64,000 nt of DNA, from positions 434,001 to 498,000 of the forward strand of contig NHNW01000025.1 of the NCBI GenBank assembly GCA_002786025.1, given 5' to 3'. Position numbers and translations under genes: made by a program. Position 1 is the first letter of the stretch. Each line of letters starts with the position of its first letter. Below the pieces are notes generated by a model that ran no database searches, was not told the origin of the DNA, and saw only the letters and a program-made list of their open reading frames with translations. This DNA comes from Zasmidium citrigriseum. Its lineage: Eukaryota; Ascomycota; Dothideomycetes; Mycosphaerellales; Mycosphaerellaceae. This document shows, one piece after another, positions 21,244 through 34,671 of this stretch.

Positions 21244-23184
21244 TCAACCTCCCGTCTTCTGCTTCTTGTTGGGCAATGCTGGAACGGCGAATCCCTGACT
21301 GTCGACCTTGCCGGGACCATTCGAACTCGCGGCACCAGAGTTGCCAACCTGCGTGAATGTTCCACCCTTGAACCAACGGTCCTCCTCGGCCTTGCGCTTG
21401 CGGTTCATCTCCTCCCGCACTCTCGGGTCAACAAGCTCCAATCCTTGGACTGGAGTGAATGCGACAGTCGAGACGGTACCACCCGTGTTGCCGACGTTGG
21501 TCTTCAAGCCCGAACCGACGCCGCTCACTCGCAGACCTTGAGCTTTGAGAGCTCCGGGAGTCGTCGGACCTCCTCCAAAGCTGCGGAGGGACGTAGACGT
21601 TCCACTGGCGGGCGTCGCAGCACCCCATCCCGCATTCTTCTTCGAAAGCTTTGCCTTGGTCCGGTTGTCGATCTGCTGGGCTCGCACACGACCATCGTCT
21701 TGCGCACCAATCATTCCCAATCCCTTGGTGCCGTCACCAAAGCCGACTTCAGCTTCCTCTTTACCAAACGCCATCCGGTTCTGAGCCTTGCGCAGATCAG
21801 TCATGGCAGTAGCCTCCTTCATCTTCCTCACTCTGCGACCACCACGCTTGCGTGAAGGCTTGTCATCTGGAGCTGGTAGGGCTTTGACGCCGCTGTTTGG
21901 TGGCGCTTCTGAGAGCTTGTTGATGGCCTTCTCGACCTCGTCAGCGAAGGCCAATCCTTGATCGCCGGAGGGAGACTCGTGGGCAGCATCTATGCGGGCG
22001 GCGAGGACGACCTTTCCAGAAAGCCTACGCATGGCTTGTCTCTTCAGGTCCTGTGGAACGGCTCGGATGATCTCATTGTTATAGAGAACACCTTGGTTCC
22101 GCACGCCAACGTTGGTAGCAAGACCGGCTGCTCGAGCACTCTTCTTGTTGCCCAAAGGTGGGATGTTGGCCGCGGGAGTTTTGGCCAGGCCTGAAATTCC
22201 TCCGGCGTAGTTGATGAGCTGTGCTGCAGTTGCAGATCCGATGAGAGCGGTCAAGTTAGGTGCAAACATGGACATGCGAGACTGCACGTAGTCTGTAAGA
22301 ATCTTCTTGGCGCTGTCAAGCTTCAGAGTCATCTGGCATGCTCTCTTGACGGTGGCCAGCTCGGACTCAGAAAGCGGTTGACCCGTCGTGGTGGTGGCTT
22401 CGACCGTGACGACCATGAGAGAAGGGCCATCGAGGACTTGCTTCAGTGTTTGACCAACGATATTGTCGTTGCTCTCGCTGATTTTGCGAATGTCTTCCAT
22501 AGGTCCATTGCCGATGATAGCGACTGTCTTGGCGTAGTCGAGCGGGTTCTGAATGAGCGTCTCCAGCTCTGGAAAGCGCACGGAATAGTGGTCGCGAATG
22601 AACTTGTGCACCAGGATGATTTCGCTGTCGATGCCGGTCGAGAGGGTGTTGGACTGCGTGAGCAGCTGGTACTCGGGGTTGTCTTCGATTCTGCCAATGT
22701 TCTGGGTCTCCTGGCCCGGGGGCAGGCTCTTGTAGTGTTGGATTTTCTGCAGCAGGACGGGATGGTTAGGGCTGTGTTCACAAGCATTTAACGACAACAG
22801 GTTGGATACAAGTTGGGGGAAGGGCTGGCTTACCTCGAGCAGTGGCTCCAGTTGCTTCATCAGACCTGCCACGCTGCGCACGTCGCTCACGTTCTGCAGC
22901 TCCATCTTCTCGACGCGTGCCTTGGTCTCTTCCTCCGTTTCTTCCTCCTCTATTTTCAGGTGACTGGGCACGTTGGTTCCATCCATGTCGTCGTCTGGGG
23001 CCTCCTCGTCGCCGTCCAAGTCCATCGCTCCATTCTGCTCGCCGTCCGCCTCATTCTTGATGCCGCCCGCCGCTTTGGAGGTATCTCCAGACTCACCGAA
23101 ATACTTGTCATCCATCTGCTCCTCCTCATTTTCGTCGCCTGAATCCTCGAAGTCGTTGAACAACTCGTCCGCCGCGGTCGCCAT
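21244..23184 (-). CDS. PRP31: U4/U6 snRNP factor Prp31
   Basis: Pre-mRNA processing factor 31, which bridges 15.5K/Snu13 and U4 snRNA in the U4/U6.U5 tri-snRNP; nuclear. Two exons, 22834-23184 and 21244-22746, joined over an 87-bp intron (22747-22833), give 617 aa. An acidic N-terminus precedes the NOSIC region (INNPLDYAKT-like, HKFIRDHYSVRFPELETLI), then the Nop domain with MSMFAPNLTALIGSATAAQLINYAGGI, and the C-terminal KRGGRRVRKMKEATAMTDLRKAQNRMAFG and STVAFTPVQGLELVDP blocks, all in family order. The intron is a multiple of three and stop-free, so the open frame reads straight through, but homology (QLEPLLE then KIQHYKS) and the CTAAC branch followed by CTGCAG show it is spliced. It is divergent from CLF1 with a 272-bp gap. 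Confidence 0.95.
   Translation of the reverse strand: MATAADELFNDFEDSGDENEEEQMDDKYFGESGDTSKAAGGIKNEADGEQNGAMDLDGDEEAPDDDMDGTNVPSHLKIEEEETEEETKARVEKMELQNVSDVRSVAGLMKQLEPLLEVSQPFPQLVSNLLSLNACEHSPNHPVLLQKIQHYKSLPPGQETQNIGRIEDNPEYQLLTQSNTLSTGIDSEIILVHKFIRDHYSVRFPELETLIQNPLDYAKTVAIIGNGPMEDIRKISESNDNIVGQTLKQVLDGPSLMVVTVEATTTTGQPLSESELATVKRACQMTLKLDSAKKILTDYVQSRMSMFAPNLTALIGSATAAQLINYAGGISGLAKTPAANIPPLGNKKSARAAGLATNVGVRNQGVLYNNEIIRAVPQDLKRQAMRRLSGKVVLAARIDAAHESPSGDQGLAFADEVEKAINKLSEAPPNSGVKALPAPDDKPSRKRGGRRVRKMKEATAMTDLRKAQNRMAFGKEEAEVGFGDGTKGLGMIGAQDDGRVRAQQIDNRTKAKLSKKNAGWGAATPASGTSTSLRSFGGGPTTPGALKAQGLRVSGVGSGLKTNVGNTGGTVSTVAFTPVQGLELVDPRVREEMNRKRKAEEDRWFKGGTFTQVGNSGAASSNGPGKVDSQGFAVPALPNKKQKTGG
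22747..22833 (-). other. PRP31 intron, 87 bp, in frame and stop-free
   Basis: Donor GTAAGC, branch CCCTAACC, acceptor CTGCTGCAG. It would encode 29 extra residues if retained. Those residues break the conserved region between MKQLEPLLE and KIQHYKSLPPG, so the spliced form is the canonical protein. Confidence 0.8.
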
Positions 23185-23456
23185 GTTGGGTGGTGTCTGC
23201 GCTTAAGCGCAAAGATCGAGAGTGTTACTCAGTCGTTCGAGAGTGTTCGAATAGCGATCGTGGTTCGATCTCGAGTGTGGCGAAGGTGTTGAAGTGAGGT
23301 TGTGTGGTTGTGGTGCGGAAGTCGCGACTGGAGGGCGGGCAGCTCATGAAAGTCAAAGCCAAGCAAGCTTTGCGGCAACATTTCTCGCGCATGTGACATC
23401 GACATCACCTCTTCCACGACTACACCTCCACCAACAAACTTCATACCACAGTCGCC
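23185..23456. promoter_or_regulatory. Shared divergent promoter PRP31/CLF1
   Basis: Only 272 bp separate the ATG codons of two spliceosome genes transcribed apart, so both promoters must lie here. It contains a perfect 14-bp palindrome, TGCGCTTAAGCGCA, at 23198-23211, 14 bp upstream of the PRP31 ATG, and two copies of TCGAGAGTGTT near 23217 and 23237. The CLF1 side has a CACCTCCACCAACAAAC-type leader. Co-regulation is inferred from the arrangement. Confidence 0.65.
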
Positions 23457-25496
23457 ATGGAGTCGTCGCGCGGCCCTCCGCGGGTCAAGAACAAGGCCGC
23501 CGCGCCTCAGCAGATCTCCGCCGAACAGCTGCTGCGCGAAGCAGTCGACCGCCAGGAACCCTCCCTCACTGCGCCGACCCAGCGATTCGCCGATCTCGAA
23601 GAACTCCATGAATACCAAGGGCGCAAGCGAAAGGAGTTCGAGGACTATGTGCGCCGCAACAGGCTTAACATGGGCAACTGGTTTCGGTATGCCGCCTGGG
23701 AACTGGAACAGAAGGAATACCGTCGCGCCCGGAGTGTCTTCGAGCGTGCCCTAGATGTCGAGAGTACGAACGTCCAGCTATGGGTGCGGTACATCGAATC
23801 TGAAATGAAGGAGAGGAACATCAACCATGCGCGAAATCTGTTGGACCGTGCTGTGACGATACTACCTCGAGTGGACAAGCTTTGGTACAAGTATGTCTAC
23901 ATGGAGGAGATGCTGGGAAACATTCCTGGGACCAGGCAGGTGTTTGAGCGGTGGATGTCGTGGGAGCCAGATGAGGCAGCGTGGAGTGCATACATCAAGC
24001 TGGAGAAGAGGTATAGCGAGTTCGAAAGAGCGAGGAATATCTTTGAGCGGTTCACGATCGTGCATCCAGAGCCAAAGAATTGGATCAAGTGGGCCAAATT
24101 CGAAGAAGAAAATGGCACGAGTGATCTGGTCCGAGAGGTCTTCGGTATGGCTATTGAAACTCTGGGCGATGAGTTCATGGACGAGAAGTTGTTCATTGCG
24201 TACGCTCGCTTTGAAGCAAAGCTGAAGGAGTATGAGCGCGCGAGAGCCATCTACAAGTACGCTCTGGACCGTATGCCCCGTTCGAAATCAGCGATCCTTC
24301 ACAAGATGTACACACAGTTCGAGAAGCAGTTTGGCGATCGAGAGGGCGTGGAGGATGTGGTGTTGTCGAAACGAAGGGTGCTGTACGAAGAGCAAGTCAA
24401 GGAGAATCCCAAAAACTACGATGCCTGGTTCGACTACGCCCGACTGGAAGAGACTGGCCAAGATCCCGAGCGAGTACGAGATGTGTACGAGCGAGCAATC
24501 GCACAAATGCCTCCGAGCCAGGAGAAACGACATTGGAGACGCTACATATATCTATGGATCTTCTACGCTATGTACGAGGAGCTCGAGACCAAGGATTTGG
24601 CCCGAGCAGCACAGGTGTACGAGGAAGCCATCAAAATCATCCCACACAAAAAGTTCACATTCGCCAAAGTCTGGATACTCAAAGCCCAGTTCCATCTACG
24701 GCAACAGGAGCTCGATCGCGCGCGAAAGACCATGGGAATGGCCATCGGAATGTGCCCCAAGAACAAGCTCTTCCGAGAATACATCGACATGGAGCTCAAA
24801 CTCTTCGAATTCGTCCGCTGCCGCACTCTCTACGAGAAATGGATCGAATTCGACCCCTCCAACTCCCAAGCCTGGATAAAATTCGCCGAACTCGAACAAG
24901 GCCTCGAAGATCTCGAACGCACCCGCGCCATCTTCGAACTCGCCATCCAGCAAGAAGTCCTCGACATGCCCGAGCTCGTCTGGAAAGCCTACATCGACTT
25001 CGAAGAAGGCGAAGGCGAATACGACAAAACCCGCTCCCTCTACGAACGCCTCCTCTCCAAGACCGACCACGTCAAAGTCTGGACCAGCTACGCCCACTTC
25101 GAAATCAACGTCCCCGACTCCGCCGACCAAATCCCCGACGACAGCGAAGAGACTGCGGCCGTCAGCGAAGCGGCGAAAGCCCGCGCGAGGAAAGTCTTCG
25201 AACGCGCGCACAAGATCTACAAGGAGCGGTCGCTGGTCGAGGAGAGAGTATCGCTGCTCAACGCGTGGAAGGCATTTGAGGATACGCATGGCAGTGAAGA
25301 GGATAAGGAGAAGGTGGCGAAGCAGATGCCGAGGAAGGTCAAGAAGAGGAGAAAGTTGGATGATGATTCGTTTGAGGAGTACATGGATTATGTGTTCCCG
25401 GCGGATGATGAGAGCAGTGCTAAGATGAGCAAGTTGATGATGATGGCGCAGAAGTGGAAGAGGGAAAAAGAAGCGGGTGGTGCGGCGGAGGCGTGA
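23457..25496 (+). CDS. CLF1: Pre-mRNA splicing factor Clf1 (Syf3/Crooked neck)
   Basis: HAT-repeat scaffold of the Prp19-associated (NTC) complex, needed for spliceosome activation and for tri-snRNP binding; nuclear. Single exon, 679 aa, equal to the family's usual 670-700. From about residue 60 onward, HAT motifs recur every 34-36 residues: [84 protein letters not shown] and so on to the C-terminus. The N-terminus [20 protein letters not shown] is the diagnostic Clf1 leader. The tail has a basic [24 protein letters not shown] block, also typical. The codon use shifts to C-ending codons from about 24780 to 25150 without any break in the protein. Confidence 0.96.
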
Positions 25497-27430: not shown

Positions 27431-28044
27431 GCTGGGTGGTCGGACTGGTCGGCAGGTCCAAGTAGATGGTGCCGACAGAATGCGTATTTATGAGAGGTCG
27501 GCGGCGGGCGAGTGGTCAGTCACGGGCGGGATAGGTCATCTGAGGAGCACGTCAGTGAAGGCGCTTCGCTATTGTCGAGGTCGCATTGTCGCGTGAAGAA
27601 GAATTGGGGGAGATGGAGGGACGGCGGTCGGCGAGTGCGAGTAGGCGAGGGGTTCGACGTACACACTGTCTGTGAATGTGGCACGTCCCCGTGAATGGGC
27701 CTCGAGGTGACGTTGGAGGCAGCTTTGGCAACCACGCCCGCCAAAACTGGGAACGCCAGGATGCTCGCCCACCATCAACTTTTGCCAATAATTCAACCGG
27801 AAAGAAGGAATTGATTGATTGCTCGAGCGTCTGATTGCGATTTCGATTTTCTCATTCCATCGTGCGCTGTTTGTCGTCGTCAAAAGTCCGTGGAAAGCTG
27901 GATGTCTGTCTATCGGTCGTTGCTCGCGTCGGCGTCGTCTCTGTCACCACCAATTAAACGAATGTGTGCCACCTGCGCCGAGCGGTGAGCGCCTTGGATC
28001 CGCAAGACGCAAGAGAATGGACGGCGTTGTCTGCCCGATTACTA
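27431..28044. other. Intergenic, promoter side of membrane-protein gene
   Basis: Host-like DNA with no supported gene; several 60-100-aa frames on both strands overlap and lack domains. Ends in TA at 28043-28044, the target-site copy of the Tc1/mariner-type element. Confidence 0.5.
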
Positions 28045-28093
28045 TACCATGCAGAATGGCGCGCCAACCCGCGGCACTACCCGCACACACCTC
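28045..28093 (+). repeat. Left terminal inverted repeat
   Basis: Begins TACCATGCAGAATGGCGCGC; pairs with the right end (TTCCATGCAAAATGGCGCGC on the minus strand). Just inside it, AATCCCAAAATTT (28094-28106) and AAATTTGGGATT (28126-28137) form a small hairpin. Confidence 0.9.
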
Positions 28094-28211
28094 AATCCCA
28101 AAATTTGTTAGCGATCACCACCAAAAATTTGGGATTATAGCCACCCATTGTACCTTCTGTATATATTTTTGCCCAAGGTGTCGTTTATGGTTAAGAAGCA
28201 GTCCAATATTA

Positions 28212-29888
28212 ATGCCGGCCGACCCCTCCTCGCCTTAGAAGCGCACCCGTAGGGCGGCTAGCCGCCTTAACGACGAGATAGCCGCTACTAACGCCCTTAC
28301 TGCCCTTACTACCGCCGCCGCCGGTCCGTCTAATAAGCGTTAGAAGAGGAGTAATAAGGGCAAGTCGAAGGAGCTACCGAAGGAGCCGCCGAAGGAGTAA
28401 GAGCGTAGCTAGTTAAAGGCTAAGAAGAGGAAGAAGAAGAAGGCACCTACGCCGGCCGTTAATAATAAGGATAGAGACTTAGATGACGAGCTTCTTAATC
28501 AATCGATAGGTCGTCGTTAACGCTCTATGCCTCGTAAGCTACCTCGTAAGGAGCCTAAGGAGTCCGATAAGGAGCTAGTCTTATACTAGCGTATATAGTA
28601 GAAGGTTTTGTATAGTAGCAAGAAGCTAGATCTGTCGGCCTAGCCTATCGTTAACGAGAATAATAGTACGAAGCCGTTTATAGACTTTAAACACTAGTAC
28701 TAGGCGTAGAAGTTAAAGGGCGATAATAGCGAGTAATATAAGAAGGATTATATCCGAGTTATTGCTACTTATAAGCGTTAGCCGCTATAGTCTTAGTATA
28801 AGGACACTATTAAGGATAAGGACGGATATAAGCTTGCTATTAGTGCCCTCCGGGGGTATAGTAAGGCCGGTAAGAAGGAGTTATAGATAGAGCTAAAGGT
28901 GCTTATTAAGAAGGTTGTACCGCCGTCTATACCGGCTCTAACTTAAAGGAATAGTGCCGGTAATAGTACTAGTGCTCGCTTAGGTACTAGGCTAAGAAAC
29001 ACTATAACTAAGCAATAGCTCCGTAAGTTAAGGCAGTCGTAGGTATTGTTATAGGCTCGTAACGACGGCTTTACGAACCTTAACGACTTAGACGACGAAG
29101 GAGCGCCTATCGACGACACTAGCGACTATCGTACCTAGCTTGTAGCTAAGTAGAAGTGTAAGAATAAGTACTACACTAACTACTAAGGTCTATACTTCTA
29201 TGCCGGCTATAATTACGCCGAGAAGTATTACCCTATCTATCTAGATGCTATCCGTCGATAGGTAATAGGTATACGTACAACGGAGCGTAGTAAGCGAGAG
29301 GGTCGTGCCCCTATTACGATAATAGATCTAGGCACCGCTATTGTAAGCTCTATATAGATGTAGAAGGAGCGGAACAAATTAAGGACTATTACGAAGAATA
29401 ACAATACTTATATTACTACGACTAGCGGCTCTTACGGCGTACCGCTCTTACTAAAGATTATTAACAACCCTAAGGGTAATATACCCTCGTTAAGTCTACG
29501 TAAACTACCGCTAGTAGACACCCTACTAAGCTCGCCGCCGTTAGTAGTGTTTCGCTTCGGTTCTAACACCTTTATTAAAGACTTCTTCGATAGACTATCG
29601 AAGAGCCGTTACTAGTAGTCTAGACTAGTAGATATCGAAAGGATAAAGTAGGTATTAATTAAAGAGAGGGACTTCGAGCTAAGGTAGGTTTATAACCTTA
29701 AACTAGAGTAGTAGATATAGTATAGGTTAAAGGAAGGGCAATATAGCCGCTTAAAGAAGGAAATTGTAAGATATTATAGGGATAATAAGGAGCTAGCTAA
29801 GGTAGTTAGGTCGGATAATTAAAGCTTCCTAAAGCTTCGACTTTACGTCCCTATTTAGCTACCTACACATAGTAAAATATTTTTCTAA
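28212..29888 (+). pseudogene. Transposon passenger ORF with Cys/His motif, RIP-destroyed
   Basis: From ATG at 28212 (MPADPSSP) one frame of 558 codons runs to TAA at 29886-29888, broken only by TAG/TAA expected from RIP. The N-terminal third is Lys/Pro-rich and low in complexity. The middle holds a probable zinc-binding block beginning KCKNK at 29154, with Cys/His codons partly changed to Tyr, then GYN[H]AEK[H]YPI and DAIRR. A conserved-looking stretch follows (GRAPITIIDLGTAIVSS). The C-terminus is charged and helical (RLKKEIVRYYRDNKELAKVV). I recall similar CxNxxCxN...HYP proteins as common uncharacterised ORFs in ascomycete genomes, but cannot verify a family. It is not the transposase and may be an accessory DNA-binding protein. 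Confidence 0.6.
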
Positions 29889-30829
29889 TACTTAGCGGAG
29901 TCTTACCTATATATAGGCTTTTATATAAATTAATTTTAAACATATTTAACTATATAGTAGTGTCGTGCTAGGGGCCATTCGATTATAGGCTAGGTAAGAT
30001 TAGGCTGCTTCCTAGATTAGGGGTTCGGCCGAGCGCGGCCGAGCTCCTCCGAGCGGCTAGTAGCTTAATACACCTAGAAATCCAATACCTACGATTACGT
30101 AACGTCTACTTATTCGTTTTCTACGCTTGTTTTTTTATATAACTCGGTGTACTTTGTACTTTTTATGCATCTACTTATCTTACTAAAAGGTAGTGTTGTT
30201 ATTACGCAATTAGTGTTAAAGCTATTACCGGCGTATACCGAAGGCAAGTCTTAGCGAAATTTATAGAGATTATAATAGCTTCGTAAACGCTTCTACTCTA
30301 TTAAATCGCTACCTATATACAAAATTAGGCCTAATCTAGGCTCGGAATCGATCCTAGCGTTAAATTTGCTAGTGTCTACTACCGAATATATACGCGAGTA
30401 ACGATGCCTACCCCTAGAGCGACCTAGAAGAAGCGACTCGGAAGAGACGAAGAGATTCTAGACAGCGATGCATTAGAAGCGACAACTATATCGATCTATA
30501 CGTATTATACAGACGATTTAGACTATAGATGTAGTCCCTAATGCCGCCGCCCGTCTTTAAAGACACCCTTACCGCCGCCGCCGCCCTCCTTACCTCCGCC
30601 GTACTCTCCGCCGTTATCCCCCTTTCCCCTACCCCCCTCGTCGTATCTCGGTAGTAGCCTATTAGAGCGGCGCTTAGACGCTATCGAAGGAGTAGTAGTT
30701 GTCTAAAAGGAGTAGCTAGAGGCACTATAGGCATATATAAAGCAGCTAGAGTAGAAGGTGTCTAAGATAGAGGTAGTCTTAAAGAAGGCTACCTATCGTC
30801 TAGTTAAGATATACGATCGTAATCTACGC
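29889..30829. other. Transposon spacer between its two ORFs
   Basis: RIP-mutated DNA between the 3' ends of the passenger ORF and the transposase. At 30541-30640 there is a C-rich tract of CCGCCGCCG and CCCCTACCCCC runs. No coding frame is convincing. Confidence 0.4.
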
Positions 30830-31806
30830 TTTCGTTATATTAATTAATAATAGCCGGCTTTCTTAAACTACCCTCGAGCGCCTACTTAGCTAAAGTTGTT
30901 AACGGTAGAGCGAAGGAAGTTACCGAAGGTTTCGAAGTAGTCGGCATCCTTAATATTAGTCTTAATCTACTACTTTAAGACGTTAAAGGACAGCTCGATT
31001 AGATTAAAGTTAGGTAAATAAGGAGGCAAGTACCGTAGGTATATACTAGCCTTATAGTATAGATCTTTAACGGCCTAAGAGCGGTAGATCGAGTAGTTAT
31101 CTATTATAAGGAAGGTGCCTCTTTAGAGCTAAGGAATTACTATATAACGGAGCTACTCCTCGAATATCTCGCTATTAATTGCTCCTTAATAGATAAGGGT
31201 GCCTTTAAGATAGCCGTTTATCGATATCGCTAGTAGAATCGACTACCTCTTTTCTCTCTTCGTAGAGGCATTATAATAGTAAGGCCGGCTAAGCGGTAAG
31301 TACCCTCTCTTTCTATAACTAGTCCGCTAGTTAGAAGCGCTCTCGTCGACGTAGACAACTCGCTCCTTCGGCATATCTATTTACTATACCCGTTAGTAAT
31401 TACGGAGCTCTTAATTACGCTCTTAAGCCTATCTTATCGCCACCTTCTTAACCTAGCTATAACGTTTAATAGTCCGTAACACCGTTAACATACTAATAAT
31501 TACTCCGAAGTCGTCGAAGAGGTACTAAACTACCTCGTTATAATAAGAGGTAGGCCTATCGTTAAGAAACTTAATAATCCTTTCCTTATAGATTAGTAAT
31601 AGGTGCCTCTTACGGCCTAACTTCTTTAGATCCTTAATATAGGGCACACTAAATAACTAGAAGTTAGTATGTAGTTTGTCGATAGTCCTTCGACTTATAT
31701 TTATACGCTCTATAATTATGTTGTTGCTAAGGCTTAATTTATCGAATAGGCGCTTAATTTCATCCACCTGCTATATAGGAAGGCGAGCTATAGCGGCGGT
31801 AAGGTG
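30830..31806 (-). pseudogene. RIP-destroyed DD34E transposase (Tc1/IS630 type)
   Basis: A minus-strand frame of about 320 codons with RIP-type stops. The N-terminal part has a helix-turn-helix (RLFDKLSLSNNIIIERI, SRRTIDKLH), then a second basic block (LKKLGRKRHLLLIYKERIIKFL). The catalytic triad is visible: Asp in YVDES (codon at 31345-31347), Asp in FLIIDNYSIY (31099-31101) and Glu in YLPPYLPNFNLIELS (30994-30996). Thirty-four residues separate the last two, as in Tc1-type DD34E enzymes. The C-terminus reads YFETFGNFLRS...NNF. The exact start is unclear and an intron near it is possible. Not functional as it stands. Confidence 0.75.
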
Positions 31807-31988
31807 TCTAAAGGGGGGTAAGGTACGGCGGCGAGGGCGTCGAGGGCGGTAACGGCAAGCAGGCTTGTAATAGGGGTAGTAGTAGCGGCGGTAGGCTTAA
31901 TATAATATAACGACGACGATATAGGACCTTTAGGTTTACGTGTGTGCTCATAGTCCCGGATTTACATAGAAAATTAGGTGGTGAAGTG

Positions 31989-32041
31989 GGAGCTTGTGTA
32001 TGCGGGTAGTTCCGTGGGTTGGCGCGCCATTTTGCATGGAA
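31989..32041 (-). repeat. Right terminal inverted repeat
   Basis: Minus-strand sequence begins TTCCATGCAAAATGGCGCGC, matching the left end at most positions with a short indel near its inner edge. TA follows at 32042-32043. Confidence 0.9.
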
Positions 32042-33052
32042 TAATAGTCCGCACGGCTGGCGAAAGAATGCAACGAGAGAGCGAACGACTGGAGGCTCAG
32101 GACGAAGCATCATGGCGAACGTGGAGTGAGCCCACCACTATGGTCGCGACAACAGCAAGCATGGCCAACCTGGCGAGGCGTGCGACACTCGCGCCGTCAG
32201 GTTACCGTTCCGTCCTTTTCGTCTATATGCGAGTCCCCGTTTTGGTGAAACGAGAGGCGTGCGTCTTGCGCGAGCTGCGATTCACCCTCAACCACCCGTC
32301 CTGCTTTCTTGAACCTGTGCCCGGCGATACCGACACCACTGCAGATGCTGTGCCATCGTTCAGCTTGTTCGCGAAGGCCTCGTGGAAGTCGAGCAGTTCC
32401 AAGGTCTTGGTGTGTCCCGGCGAAACACGATGGATGTCGTCCCAAAACAAGGGGTCGGCGAAGGCACCTCTAGCCTGTTTGGGCTGAAGAGGACCCAGGT
32501 CATGCTCTGTTCCTTGCGCAGATGCACGACTCGATGCAAGATCGGGCGTCTATCCAGTTTGCCTATATCCTTGCGGGACGTTCGGTTTCTTCAGGCAGTC
32601 TTTCCGGCGCTTCTCACAGTTATTTGTCTTCGAATAGGGAATGATCGACGAGAGACTCGAGCACTCGGACGCGGCAAGACCTTTCTGTGCCATGACGTGT
32701 CCAGCGGAATGGTACACCCGCTGTCGAGTGTCTGGTAAAGTGACTCGTCACACCAGAGGCATGCAGCAGTGCAAAAAGGAGGAAAGAATTGAGAGAGACC
32801 CAAGAGAACCCTGATCCAACGCTGTGCTTGCCGCCAGAACCGAATGTCAACGCCAAGGCTTCAAAATCCATTGTAGGTGTATGGATTGAATCCACGTCCG
32901 AAGCAACACAACACACTGGAAACATTACAAAAGAAAATGGAGGTTGTTTTGATAGCAGGCTGTCCATTTGGGTCCGGTCATGTCACCGCCGTCGCCGACT
33001 AACGCACATAAAAACACATTCGACCTCGACCAAAAATCGCGTACATGGGATC
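32042..33052. other. Intergenic between transposon and tRNA gene
   Basis: About 1 kb of host-like DNA. Frames of 75-118 aa (for example 32382-32738 plus, 32620-32967 minus) show no domain. I see no gene. Its end carries the T-runs that terminate the minus-strand tRNA gene. Confidence 0.5.
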
Positions 33053-33067
33053 AAAAAAAGACAAAAA
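33053..33067 (-). terminator. RNA polymerase III terminator of the tRNA gene
   Basis: On the minus strand TTTTT (33063-33067) starts five nucleotides after the tRNA 3' end and TTTTTTT (33053-33059) follows. T-runs at this distance are standard Pol III stop signals. Confidence 0.8.
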
Positions 33068-33126
33068 GAGATAGCTGAGAACGGTTTCGATCCGTTGCCC
33101 TCCGGGTTATGAGCCCGGCGCGCTTC

Positions 33127-33195
33127 CTGAAAGGTTGTTAGACTGGTATTCATGTCGTCGACCCCTGAGGGACGATCGAAAATTGGTTCACTGAC
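33127..33195 (-). other. tRNA intron 2 (D loop), GT-AG type
   Basis: 69 nt; donor GTCAGT, branch GTCTAAC (CTAAC at 33137-33141), acceptor CCTTTCAG. It separates nucleotides 17 and 18 of the tRNA, in the D loop. GTCAGT is a less common but acceptable fungal donor. Confidence 0.8.
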
Positions 33196-33206
33196 CGCTG
33201 CGCCAC

Positions 33207-33258
33207 CTAAGCGATTGTTAGAACATGTTTTGCGGTGAGATAGACCACTGGAACTTAC
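33207..33258 (-). other. tRNA intron 1 (acceptor stem), GT-AG type
   Basis: 52 nt; donor GTAAGT, branch TTCTAAC (CTAAC at 33217-33221), acceptor CGCTTAG. Length and signals equal those of protein-gene introns in this window. It separates nucleotides 6 and 7 of the tRNA. Because exon 2 starts with G, the cut could slide by one base, but only this placement gives GT..AG. Confidence 0.82.
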
Positions 33259-33264
33259 TCAGCT

Positions 33265-34671
33265 GCTTGCACAAGCCAGTACGTGATTGGTTGGGCATTG
33301 GTCGGCCTTCAATACATATATACCTATGACCGGCTGTTTCCGCTCTCGGCCGAACAGGAAGTCCCGACAGGAAACCCTGGCCAACCTGGCGTCCTAGAGA
33401 CTGCAAGACTTTCATCCGCCCTTTGATATCTCAAAAGCAAACTCATATCGACATGAGTGTGCCTTTGACGGCTGAGGAAGTGATATCGCAGCCTTGTCAC
33501 GATGCAGCCTTGCCCTCGGCATTTTCAAACGATCGCAGCAAACCAACCTGCATGGCTCCAGAACCCGGAAAGCGCCTGACTGCATGATTTCCTTCGAGTA
33601 TGCATCAAAATCTCACTGCCCGGCATGGGCATAATCACGGCCTCCCTTCTTCGTCAACAGCTCCGCTGACCCCGTCAAACACCCCATCCAGTACCGGTAT
33701 TTCCCTTTCTTGACCCTGGTGCCTTCTCGCCACGCGCAGCCTGCGGAGCGCCATGGAACGACGTCTTCCTGCGCCGCTTACGACTGTTCACAGCAACAGC
33801 TTCCCTTCGACTTTCTTCCAACGCAAGCGGCGCTGCAAGTGCAACACCAGCCAGAAATCGGAGAATATTATCTTTGGTTGCTCCACACACGATGTGAAGA
33901 TCGACATAGGAGCCGAGTCCGCTCCCGTGAGCCCAAAATTGGAAACGACCTCTCAACTGACGACAAACCGCAACAACGTTCTACCTTTTCTGTACCAGGG
34001 AACTATCAAGAACGCCAACATGCACGTCACAACGACCATCAGCTATATCTCGGACTATACAACAAGTTGCATTTCGATGCCCTCGTATCGCAACTTCCAA
34101 CAGAGAAACCGAGGCTCAAAGTCCCCCATCCTTAGCCTCTCCTGAAGACACTCTTTTCGGACACCATCTTTCCGAGCTCCACAGAAACCATCGCCCTCCA
34201 AATCTCCCATCCCCGTCCGGCGTGCTATCTTGGTCTGACCTCACGCTATAGGATTCTTTCCTTCCCAAAGTGGCAGTTTCATCGATGGCATTCCGTCATG
34301 TCCATCTCAGCGGCGCTCAATCGCAACGACACCCGATCTCACGACGCGTCGGCTAAAGACCTAACTTCACGCCAGACCCATCCTACAACGCTCGGAATGG
34401 ACAACGGATTTGCCACGAGTCGTGATGTTTGGGAGAAGTAGCGTGCTCGTGTTGTCCGAGTTCGATCATCGAGGCGCTTACGAAGGACGATAGGACACTA
34501 CTCGTTGACGGCGTCGAGTATGTGAGGTGGTAGGTATATATTCCTGTTGTCTCCTTCACCTGAACGCAGCCGCTTCTCCTACCCGACTACTTCAACCGTC
34601 AATCGTTCGACTTTGCTTCGTATCAAGCCTTTACTTGGACCCTTCCAGACCAATCGTCTTTATTTACGACA
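33265..34671. other. Intergenic, about 1.4 kb
   Basis: No gene supported. Two overlapping plus-strand frames at 33710-34145 (130-141 aa) compete and neither has a recognisable domain. The first tens of bases would hold upstream elements of the minus-strand tRNA gene; the last 150 bases hold the promoter and CT-rich leader of the secreted Gly/Asn-rich gene. Confidence 0.5.

Follow-up and report, generated by a model that had tools for sequence, protein, structure and literature searches.

An initiator tRNA-Met gene on the minus strand of the window (the whole 64-kb stretch of DNA analyzed here; gene at 33264-33072) yields its 72-nt product only after the excision of two segments of 52 and 69 nt, both of which carry the signals of mRNA introns. 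An earlier note on this DNA had interpreted the two segments as spliceosomal introns within an initiator tRNA gene. The sequence comparisons described below support this interpretation and carry it further, to many other tRNA genes and to U6, where we found introns of the same kind. On these grounds we consider it very likely that Pol III tRNA precursors, those of both initiators and of several other tRNAs, are spliced by the spliceosome in this fungus. Protein comparison places the organism among the Mycosphaerellaceae ascomycetes, in the neighborhood of Zasmidium cellare, which supplies the best named match to two window proteins, at 88% for one (an unnamed protein stands at 90%) and at 83% for the other.

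Two initiator tRNA genes in pieces

The window gene consists of three exons, all read on the minus strand. Exon 1 (AGCTGA, tRNA nt 1-6; 33259..33264) forms pairs with the last part of exon 3 (nt 71-66) and is followed by the 52-nt intron 1 (33207..33258), which reads GTAAGT..TTCTAACAATCGCTTAG, with an internal CTAAC and the 3' end TTAG (CTTAG). Exon 2 (GTGGCGCAGCG, 11 nt, tRNA nt 7-17; 33196..33206) precedes the 69-nt intron 2 (33127..33195), reading GTCAGT..GTCTAACAACCTTTCAG, again with CTAAC and ending in TTTCAG. Exon 3 (55 nt, tRNA nt 18-72; 33072..33126) contains the anticodon CAT (33111-33109) and the B box GGATCGAAACC (33093-33083). The coordinates agree with those first given, and the blocks of 6, 11 and 55 nt form a flawless 72-nt initiator; the joined exons were recognized by ARAGORN as tRNA-Met(CAT). 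The GT starts and AG ends are likewise as first described, and CTAAC is present in both introns, lying 10 nt before the 3' end in each rather than at the 8-10 nt previously given. On the unspliced locus ARAGORN found no tRNA, and it reported none across the whole 64-kb window. Rfam returned no match in the window at the gathering threshold, group I and group II intron families included; segments of 52-69 nt are too short for either type of intron. The fold of the unspliced precursor was not unusually stable (z -0.57). The interruptions fall at positions 6/7 and 17/18, not at the canonical 37/38.

Features of a Pol III gene are all present at this locus. The A box TGGCGCAGCGG (33195..33205, minus strand), read from the sequence against the A-box consensus, is unbroken in the DNA because intron 2 begins with a G. 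Together with the B box it is accompanied by two T-runs 3' of exon 3, TTTTT (33067-33063) and TTTTTTT (33059-33053), which resemble Pol III terminators (33053..33067 on the minus strand) and correspond to those noticed earlier. Upstream, a CCAATC element lies about 25 nt 5' of exon 1 (33285..33290, minus strand) and a TATA-like TATATAT 58 nt 5' of it (33316..33322, minus strand).

When the joined 72 nt were compared with the fungus's own genome, a single other initiator locus was found, on contig C72, and it too is interrupted twice. Its exons are AGCTTTGTGGCGCAG, CGGAAGCGCGCCGG and GCTCATAACC..CAAAGCTA. Intron 1 is a 51-nt GC-AG intron (GCGAGT..TTCTAACATCCATCCAG), and intron 2 has 53 nt (GTAAGT..AATAACCATATCAG) and contains AATAAC but no YTRAC. 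The introns of this copy follow nt 15 and 29 (15/16 and 29/30), those of the window copy nt 6 and 17, and the different positions suggest that at least some of them were gained separately. The C72 copy has its A box interrupted by an intron, and 131 nt separate it from the closest TATA-like element. An intact A-box-like sequence, TAGCTGAGTGG, lies about 76 nt upstream (L012:2272-2290) and is perhaps a substitute promoter element.

How far the exon boundaries depend on assuming splice signals was addressed by a blind search over excision pairs of 38-90 nt. No splice rule was imposed; a light filter asked for T8-G9 or a D-loop GG, and the score combined the match to the human and yeast initiator tRNAs with acceptor pairing. 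At the window locus two excisions reached 53 (next score 51.3), one excision 39.9-41 and zero excisions 23.3-25.3. Every solution tied at 53 had lengths of 52 and 69 nt, differing by slides of 2-3 nt, and the tie set contained GT-AG for both introns. With a general tRNA score, GT-AG reached 57.5 and led all 256 dinucleotide rules, the runner-up standing at 53.3; boundary slides of this kind produce many ties in such rankings. For the second copy the optimum was 51/53 nt (score 53; next 51; one excision 41). Each initiator tie set thus includes a GT-AG or GC-AG solution, and such ends, with a 5' site like GTRAGT, occur in 4/4 initiator introns.

The two copies also document that the distant exons belong together. 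Their acceptor stems are AGCTGAG/CTCAGCT and AGCTTTG/CAAAGCT, and pairs 5 and 6 change on both sides, which links exons 1 and 3 over the two introns between them and bears out the proposal that the acceptor stem pairs only with the distant 6-nt exon. Across four sequences, the two copies and the two reference initiators, 84/84 stem cells pair and seven pairs change on both sides. Initiator tRNAs are marked by A1-U72, three G-C pairs beside the anticodon loop, CAU, A54 and A60, and both joined copies have every one of these features. As judged from sequence, the window locus is one of two probably functional initiator tRNA-Met genes.

Introns of the same kind in other tRNA genes and in U6

To see how common such genes are, we rebuilt tRNAs around T-arm anchors in a sample, not a census, of the genome. 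It comprised regions around 18 of 35 RF00005 matches (the other 17 sit on C51 and C41, small contigs with dense tRNA clusters), 80 B-box regions drawn from the first 100 of 185 B-box places, and 20 further regions representing part of two longer match lists. Once segments with splice signals could be removed, 31 of 78 anchors scored at least 50, among them L023, perhaps not a nuclear tRNA gene, whose contig is small and AT-rich; 12 of the 31 use at least one splice-signal intron. These are Ser-CGA, Gly-CCC, elongator Met, Val-AAC, Glu-TTC, Lys-CTT, Val-CAC, Gln-CTG twice, Pro-CGG and Asp-GTC with two introns each, and Leu-CAG, which is a probable case only.

GT-AG ends were part of the selection of the non-initiator genes, and their weight therefore comes from a decoy control and from rule rankings. 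On the same 78 anchors, GT-AG plus the branch motif rebuilt these same 12 to a score of at least 50; nine decoy sets of dinucleotides plus motif rebuilt 0, 0, 0, 0, 1, 1, 0, 0 and 1, with 185-545 candidate segments per decoy set versus 421 for the real signals. When a single excision was allowed under each of 256 rules, GT-AG was the commonest at every threshold tried, with 9, 8, 6 and 5 loci at the four thresholds. At the loosest, the next-best rule, GT-AA, reached 6 versus 9; at a score of 48 and a gain of 8, GT-AG gave six loci (counting L151, rejected below) versus two for the next rule. Locus by locus, GT-AG ranked first, with ties (in brackets), for Ser-CGA (2), the two Gln-CTG genes (2 and 3), elongator Met (4), Glu-TTC (5), Lys-CTT (18) and Val-CAC (18), second for Gly-CCC and third for Val-AAC. 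For Asp it only ties for first, being listed 4th of 241 rules, and in the case of Pro CG-AG does equally well. In Leu-CAG the gain was 1 and GT-AG ranked 18, and the splice-signal reconstruction had settled on another boundary; a 54-nt GT-AG reading restores a variable-arm hairpin by eye. L151 passed the GT-AG threshold, yet GT-AG ranks 38 of 256 there, and we rejected it.

Two more genes lie outside the anchor set. Trp-CCA has two introns, with GT-AG first of 256 rules by a wide margin (52.1; next rule 41.8), and Arg-CCT needs three, its score rising from 17.5 to 52.0; one of the three is sure and the other two only probable, and the acceptor has four G-U pairs. Beyond the initiators, the sampled part of the genome therefore holds 14 further tRNA genes of this type, one only probable, and the sampled total including the two initiators amounts to 16 genes and 23 introns, 20 of them counted firm.

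We also noticed some dozen tRNA-like genes that form a family (L147, at C78:193950-196250, and L048, L092, L093, L109, L150 and L151). In most the acceptor resembles GCTGATC/GGTCAGC; the D and T arms are conserved, whereas the anticodon arm is hypervariable, and several lack T33 as best read. They are partly clustered, with five T arms within about 1.4 kb.

The introns resemble one another in their signals. A YTRAC whose branch A sits 10-15 nt ahead of the 3' end occurs in 17/18 tRNA introns compared to 447/8360 background AGs, a comparison that is not blind, as some introns were picked with the signals in view; the blind or decoy-controlled tests are the initiator excision search and the 78-anchor decoy run. 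The sole exception is intron 2 of the second initiator. Five further tRNA introns contain CTAAC or CTGAC by eye. Intron lengths of 50-78 nt compare with 51-55 nt for three mRNA introns, those of a P450 gene in the window, and 56-58 nt for U6. The earlier note had described the initiator introns as sharing the signals of local mRNA introns; this holds in kind, the P450 introns being GT-AG with CTGAC, CTAAT and CTGAC. Ordinary introns at 37/38 look different: among 14 of them (8-44 nt), taken from genes without spliceosomal-type introns and with L023, L026 and L028 left out beforehand, GT-AG occurs in 0/14 and YTRAC in 1/14. In the Asp, Pro, Gln and elongator Met genes, a spliceosomal-type intron and an ordinary 37/38 intron are present together.

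U6 provides a precedent within the same genome. All three U6 snRNA matches (L144, C117:112082; L145, C72:164981; L146, C59:490950), each scoring under the family cut-off, are interrupted at one and the same site by an mRNA-type intron, the sequence of which differs among them. The introns have 56-58 nt and are preceded by GCATGGCC (in one case GCTTGGCC) and followed by CCTGCAC; they begin with GTAAGT, and the branch is CTAAC in two and CTAAT in one. In other organisms, U6 is a Pol III gene.

Proposed transcription and removal of the introns

In the mechanism that we propose, Pol III would start upstream of exon 1, transcribe both introns and terminate in the T-runs. Excision of the two short introns by the major (U2-type) spliceosome would then join the 6-, 11- and 55-nt exons, and the initiator tRNA would be completed by RNase P and 3' processing. 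The same would apply to the second initiator gene, whose introns are placed elsewhere. Several other tRNAs would likewise lose spliceosomal-type introns, some of them alongside a 37/38 intron left to the tRNA endonuclease. Pol III transcription, removal by the spliceosome and the resulting dependence of initiation on the spliceosome are what we infer from the arrangement of these genes.

The elements flanking the tRNA genes fit a transcription start upstream of exon 1 in the window gene. A TATA-like element lies 37-79 nt upstream in 22/30 tRNA genes, the window gene included, and at 94-99 nt in two more, with the second initiator at its 131 nt and no such element by the pattern used in 5/30. 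In 17/30 a CAATC-like element occurs no more than 75 nt away; both patterns are loose, and these counts are raw, uncorrected for background. Inspection by eye indicated that intron ends often restore box bases in the DNA, as in the A box of the window gene, and that an intron AG precedes TTCGA in Arg and TTCAA in Trp. Where an intron contributes bases to the A or B box through its AG or GT end, insertion seems to have been tolerated.

These observations bear on the reading that the spliced product comes from a capped Pol II transcript covering the tRNA and not from a Pol III precursor. The usual substrates of the spliceosome are Pol II transcripts, and a TATA-like element is present; yet TATA- and CAATC-like elements are common to tRNA genes without such introns, the A box, B box and T-runs are in place, and in several genes the intron ends appear to keep the boxes whole. 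In addition, U6 carries the same introns, and there is no ORF of at least 250 aa between 27179 and 36605, although shorter ORFs overlap the region. We therefore consider a Pol II origin quite unlikely.

Alternatively, both initiator loci could be decayed or interrupted pseudogenes, with the working gene in an unassembled part of the genome. The assembly (44.4 Mb) is in 148 contigs, so that copy counts from it are lower bounds, and the DNA search is insensitive, having missed a known exact Asp exon of 27 nt; as it found no Asp locus at all, it carries no information on Asp copy number. Within that assembly, searches with the joined tRNA and with two patterns revealed no intron-free initiator gene, the finding on which the earlier note had let its interpretation turn; the one other copy has two mRNA-type introns of its own. 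A 32-nt pattern from the anticodon loop to the T loop, with up to three mismatches, matched the two initiator loci alone. A 5'-half pattern with up to two mismatches matched two places genome-wide, neither an initiator: one is the tRNA-Trp with its two introns, and the other matches no particular tRNA and is not followed by CTCATAA. Moreover, both joined tRNAs are flawless and the copies show compensated pairs, all four segments carry splice ends, and other tRNA genes are built alike beyond what decoys yield. Loss of function at both loci is accordingly a very unlikely account. Of the remaining matches, two in IMG/VR to exon 3 are contiguous tRNA genes in bacterial- or phage-like tRNA clusters and are unrelated. 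At L171:1493-1850, a tRNA-like 5' half (GTGTCGCAGTGGTAGCGCGC) is followed by a T-arm-like sequence about 250 nt later, and the two did not yield a tRNA.

Least probable of all is that the tRNA splicing endonuclease and ligase act here at non-canonical sites, as in Cyanidioschyzon or nucleomorphs: introns of that sort are described for a few eukaryotes in the accessible part of a review (PMC4090602) and the fungus has ordinary 37/38 introns, but in a simple bulge-helix-bulge check a full 4-bp junction helix was present in 0/18 spliceosomal-type introns, in which the branch motif is nearly universal, and none of the canonical introns is GT-AG.

Taking spliceosomal removal from Pol III precursors as the preferred reading, a broader picture emerges that we regard as likely, if somewhat less assured than splicing itself. 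Spliceosomal introns would have entered Pol III tRNA genes repeatedly and at many positions in this lineage, and both initiators, together with the single loci that turned up for elongator Met and for Trp, would need the spliceosome. For these two elongator tRNAs one locus each is a lower bound, given the insensitive DNA search, and that of Trp came from the initiator 5'-half pattern. Translation, initiation included, would then depend on the splicing machinery, and two splicing systems would mature tRNA, sometimes the same molecule (Asp, Pro, Gln and elongator Met).

Relation to known introns and implications

Textbook nuclear tRNA splicing uses a dedicated endonuclease and ligase and acts mostly at one position. 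Like these canonical 37/38 introns, the ones described here reside in nuclear tRNA genes, several of which contain both kinds; unlike them, they sit at other positions, have GT-AG ends and a branch site, and lack a full bulge-helix-bulge helix. They are also akin to the mRNA-type introns of fungal U6, which are likewise short, GT-AG, equipped with a branch site and housed in a gene that Pol III transcribes into a small structured RNA. Here, in contrast to U6, the host is a tRNA with exons down to 4-6 nt and internal promoter boxes to preserve, and a gene may have up to two or three introns. PMC5832005 names U3 and U6 as the sole small structured RNAs in which frequent interruption by an intron was known. 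According to the accessible part of PMC4090602, the bulge-helix-bulge introns of nucleomorphs and of Cyanidioschyzon merolae likewise interrupt eukaryotic tRNA genes in the D, T and anticodon arms; the Guillardia nucleomorph insertions have 3-24 nt and are credited to the splicing endonuclease, whereas those found here have 50-78 nt and spliceosomal signals. The same portion of that review describes 37/38 and bulge-helix-bulge introns and contains no word beginning "spliceosom". Nor is there mention of spliceosomal tRNA introns in the available portions of PMC8393795, PMC3978253 and PMC11782384. In open-licence literature, judged by titles and the starts of abstracts, we found no report of spliceosomal introns in nuclear tRNA genes, a negative that covers subscription papers and bioRxiv little or not at all.

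As to the source of the introns, introner-like elements have driven recent parallel gain of spliceosomal introns in related fungi of the Dothideomycetes, as stated in PMC4457414. Unlike these, the 69-nt intron 2 of the window gene, the one intron compared with the genome, occurs at no second place and forms no multi-copy family, and a tie between the tRNA introns and introners is only a guess.

If the reconstructions hold, the spliceosome would also mature tRNAs, that is, Pol III transcripts with exons down to 4-6 nt, and splicing capacity would be coupled to translation initiation. This would explain why tRNA finders miss such genes, offer a natural test of the spliceosome on micro-exons and structured RNA, and bring Pol III genes into the study of recent intron gain.

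Two features of the surroundings of the window gene may be added. At 21244-25496, two splicing-factor-like genes, one for Prp31 and one for a HAT-repeat protein like Syf/Clf1, stand side by side, probably by coincidence. At 28037-32049, ending roughly 1 kb short of the initiator gene, is a 4-kb DNA-transposon-like element. Its terminal inverted repeats measure 54 nt and are 87% complementary, and by eye its interior is TA-rich and RIP-like.
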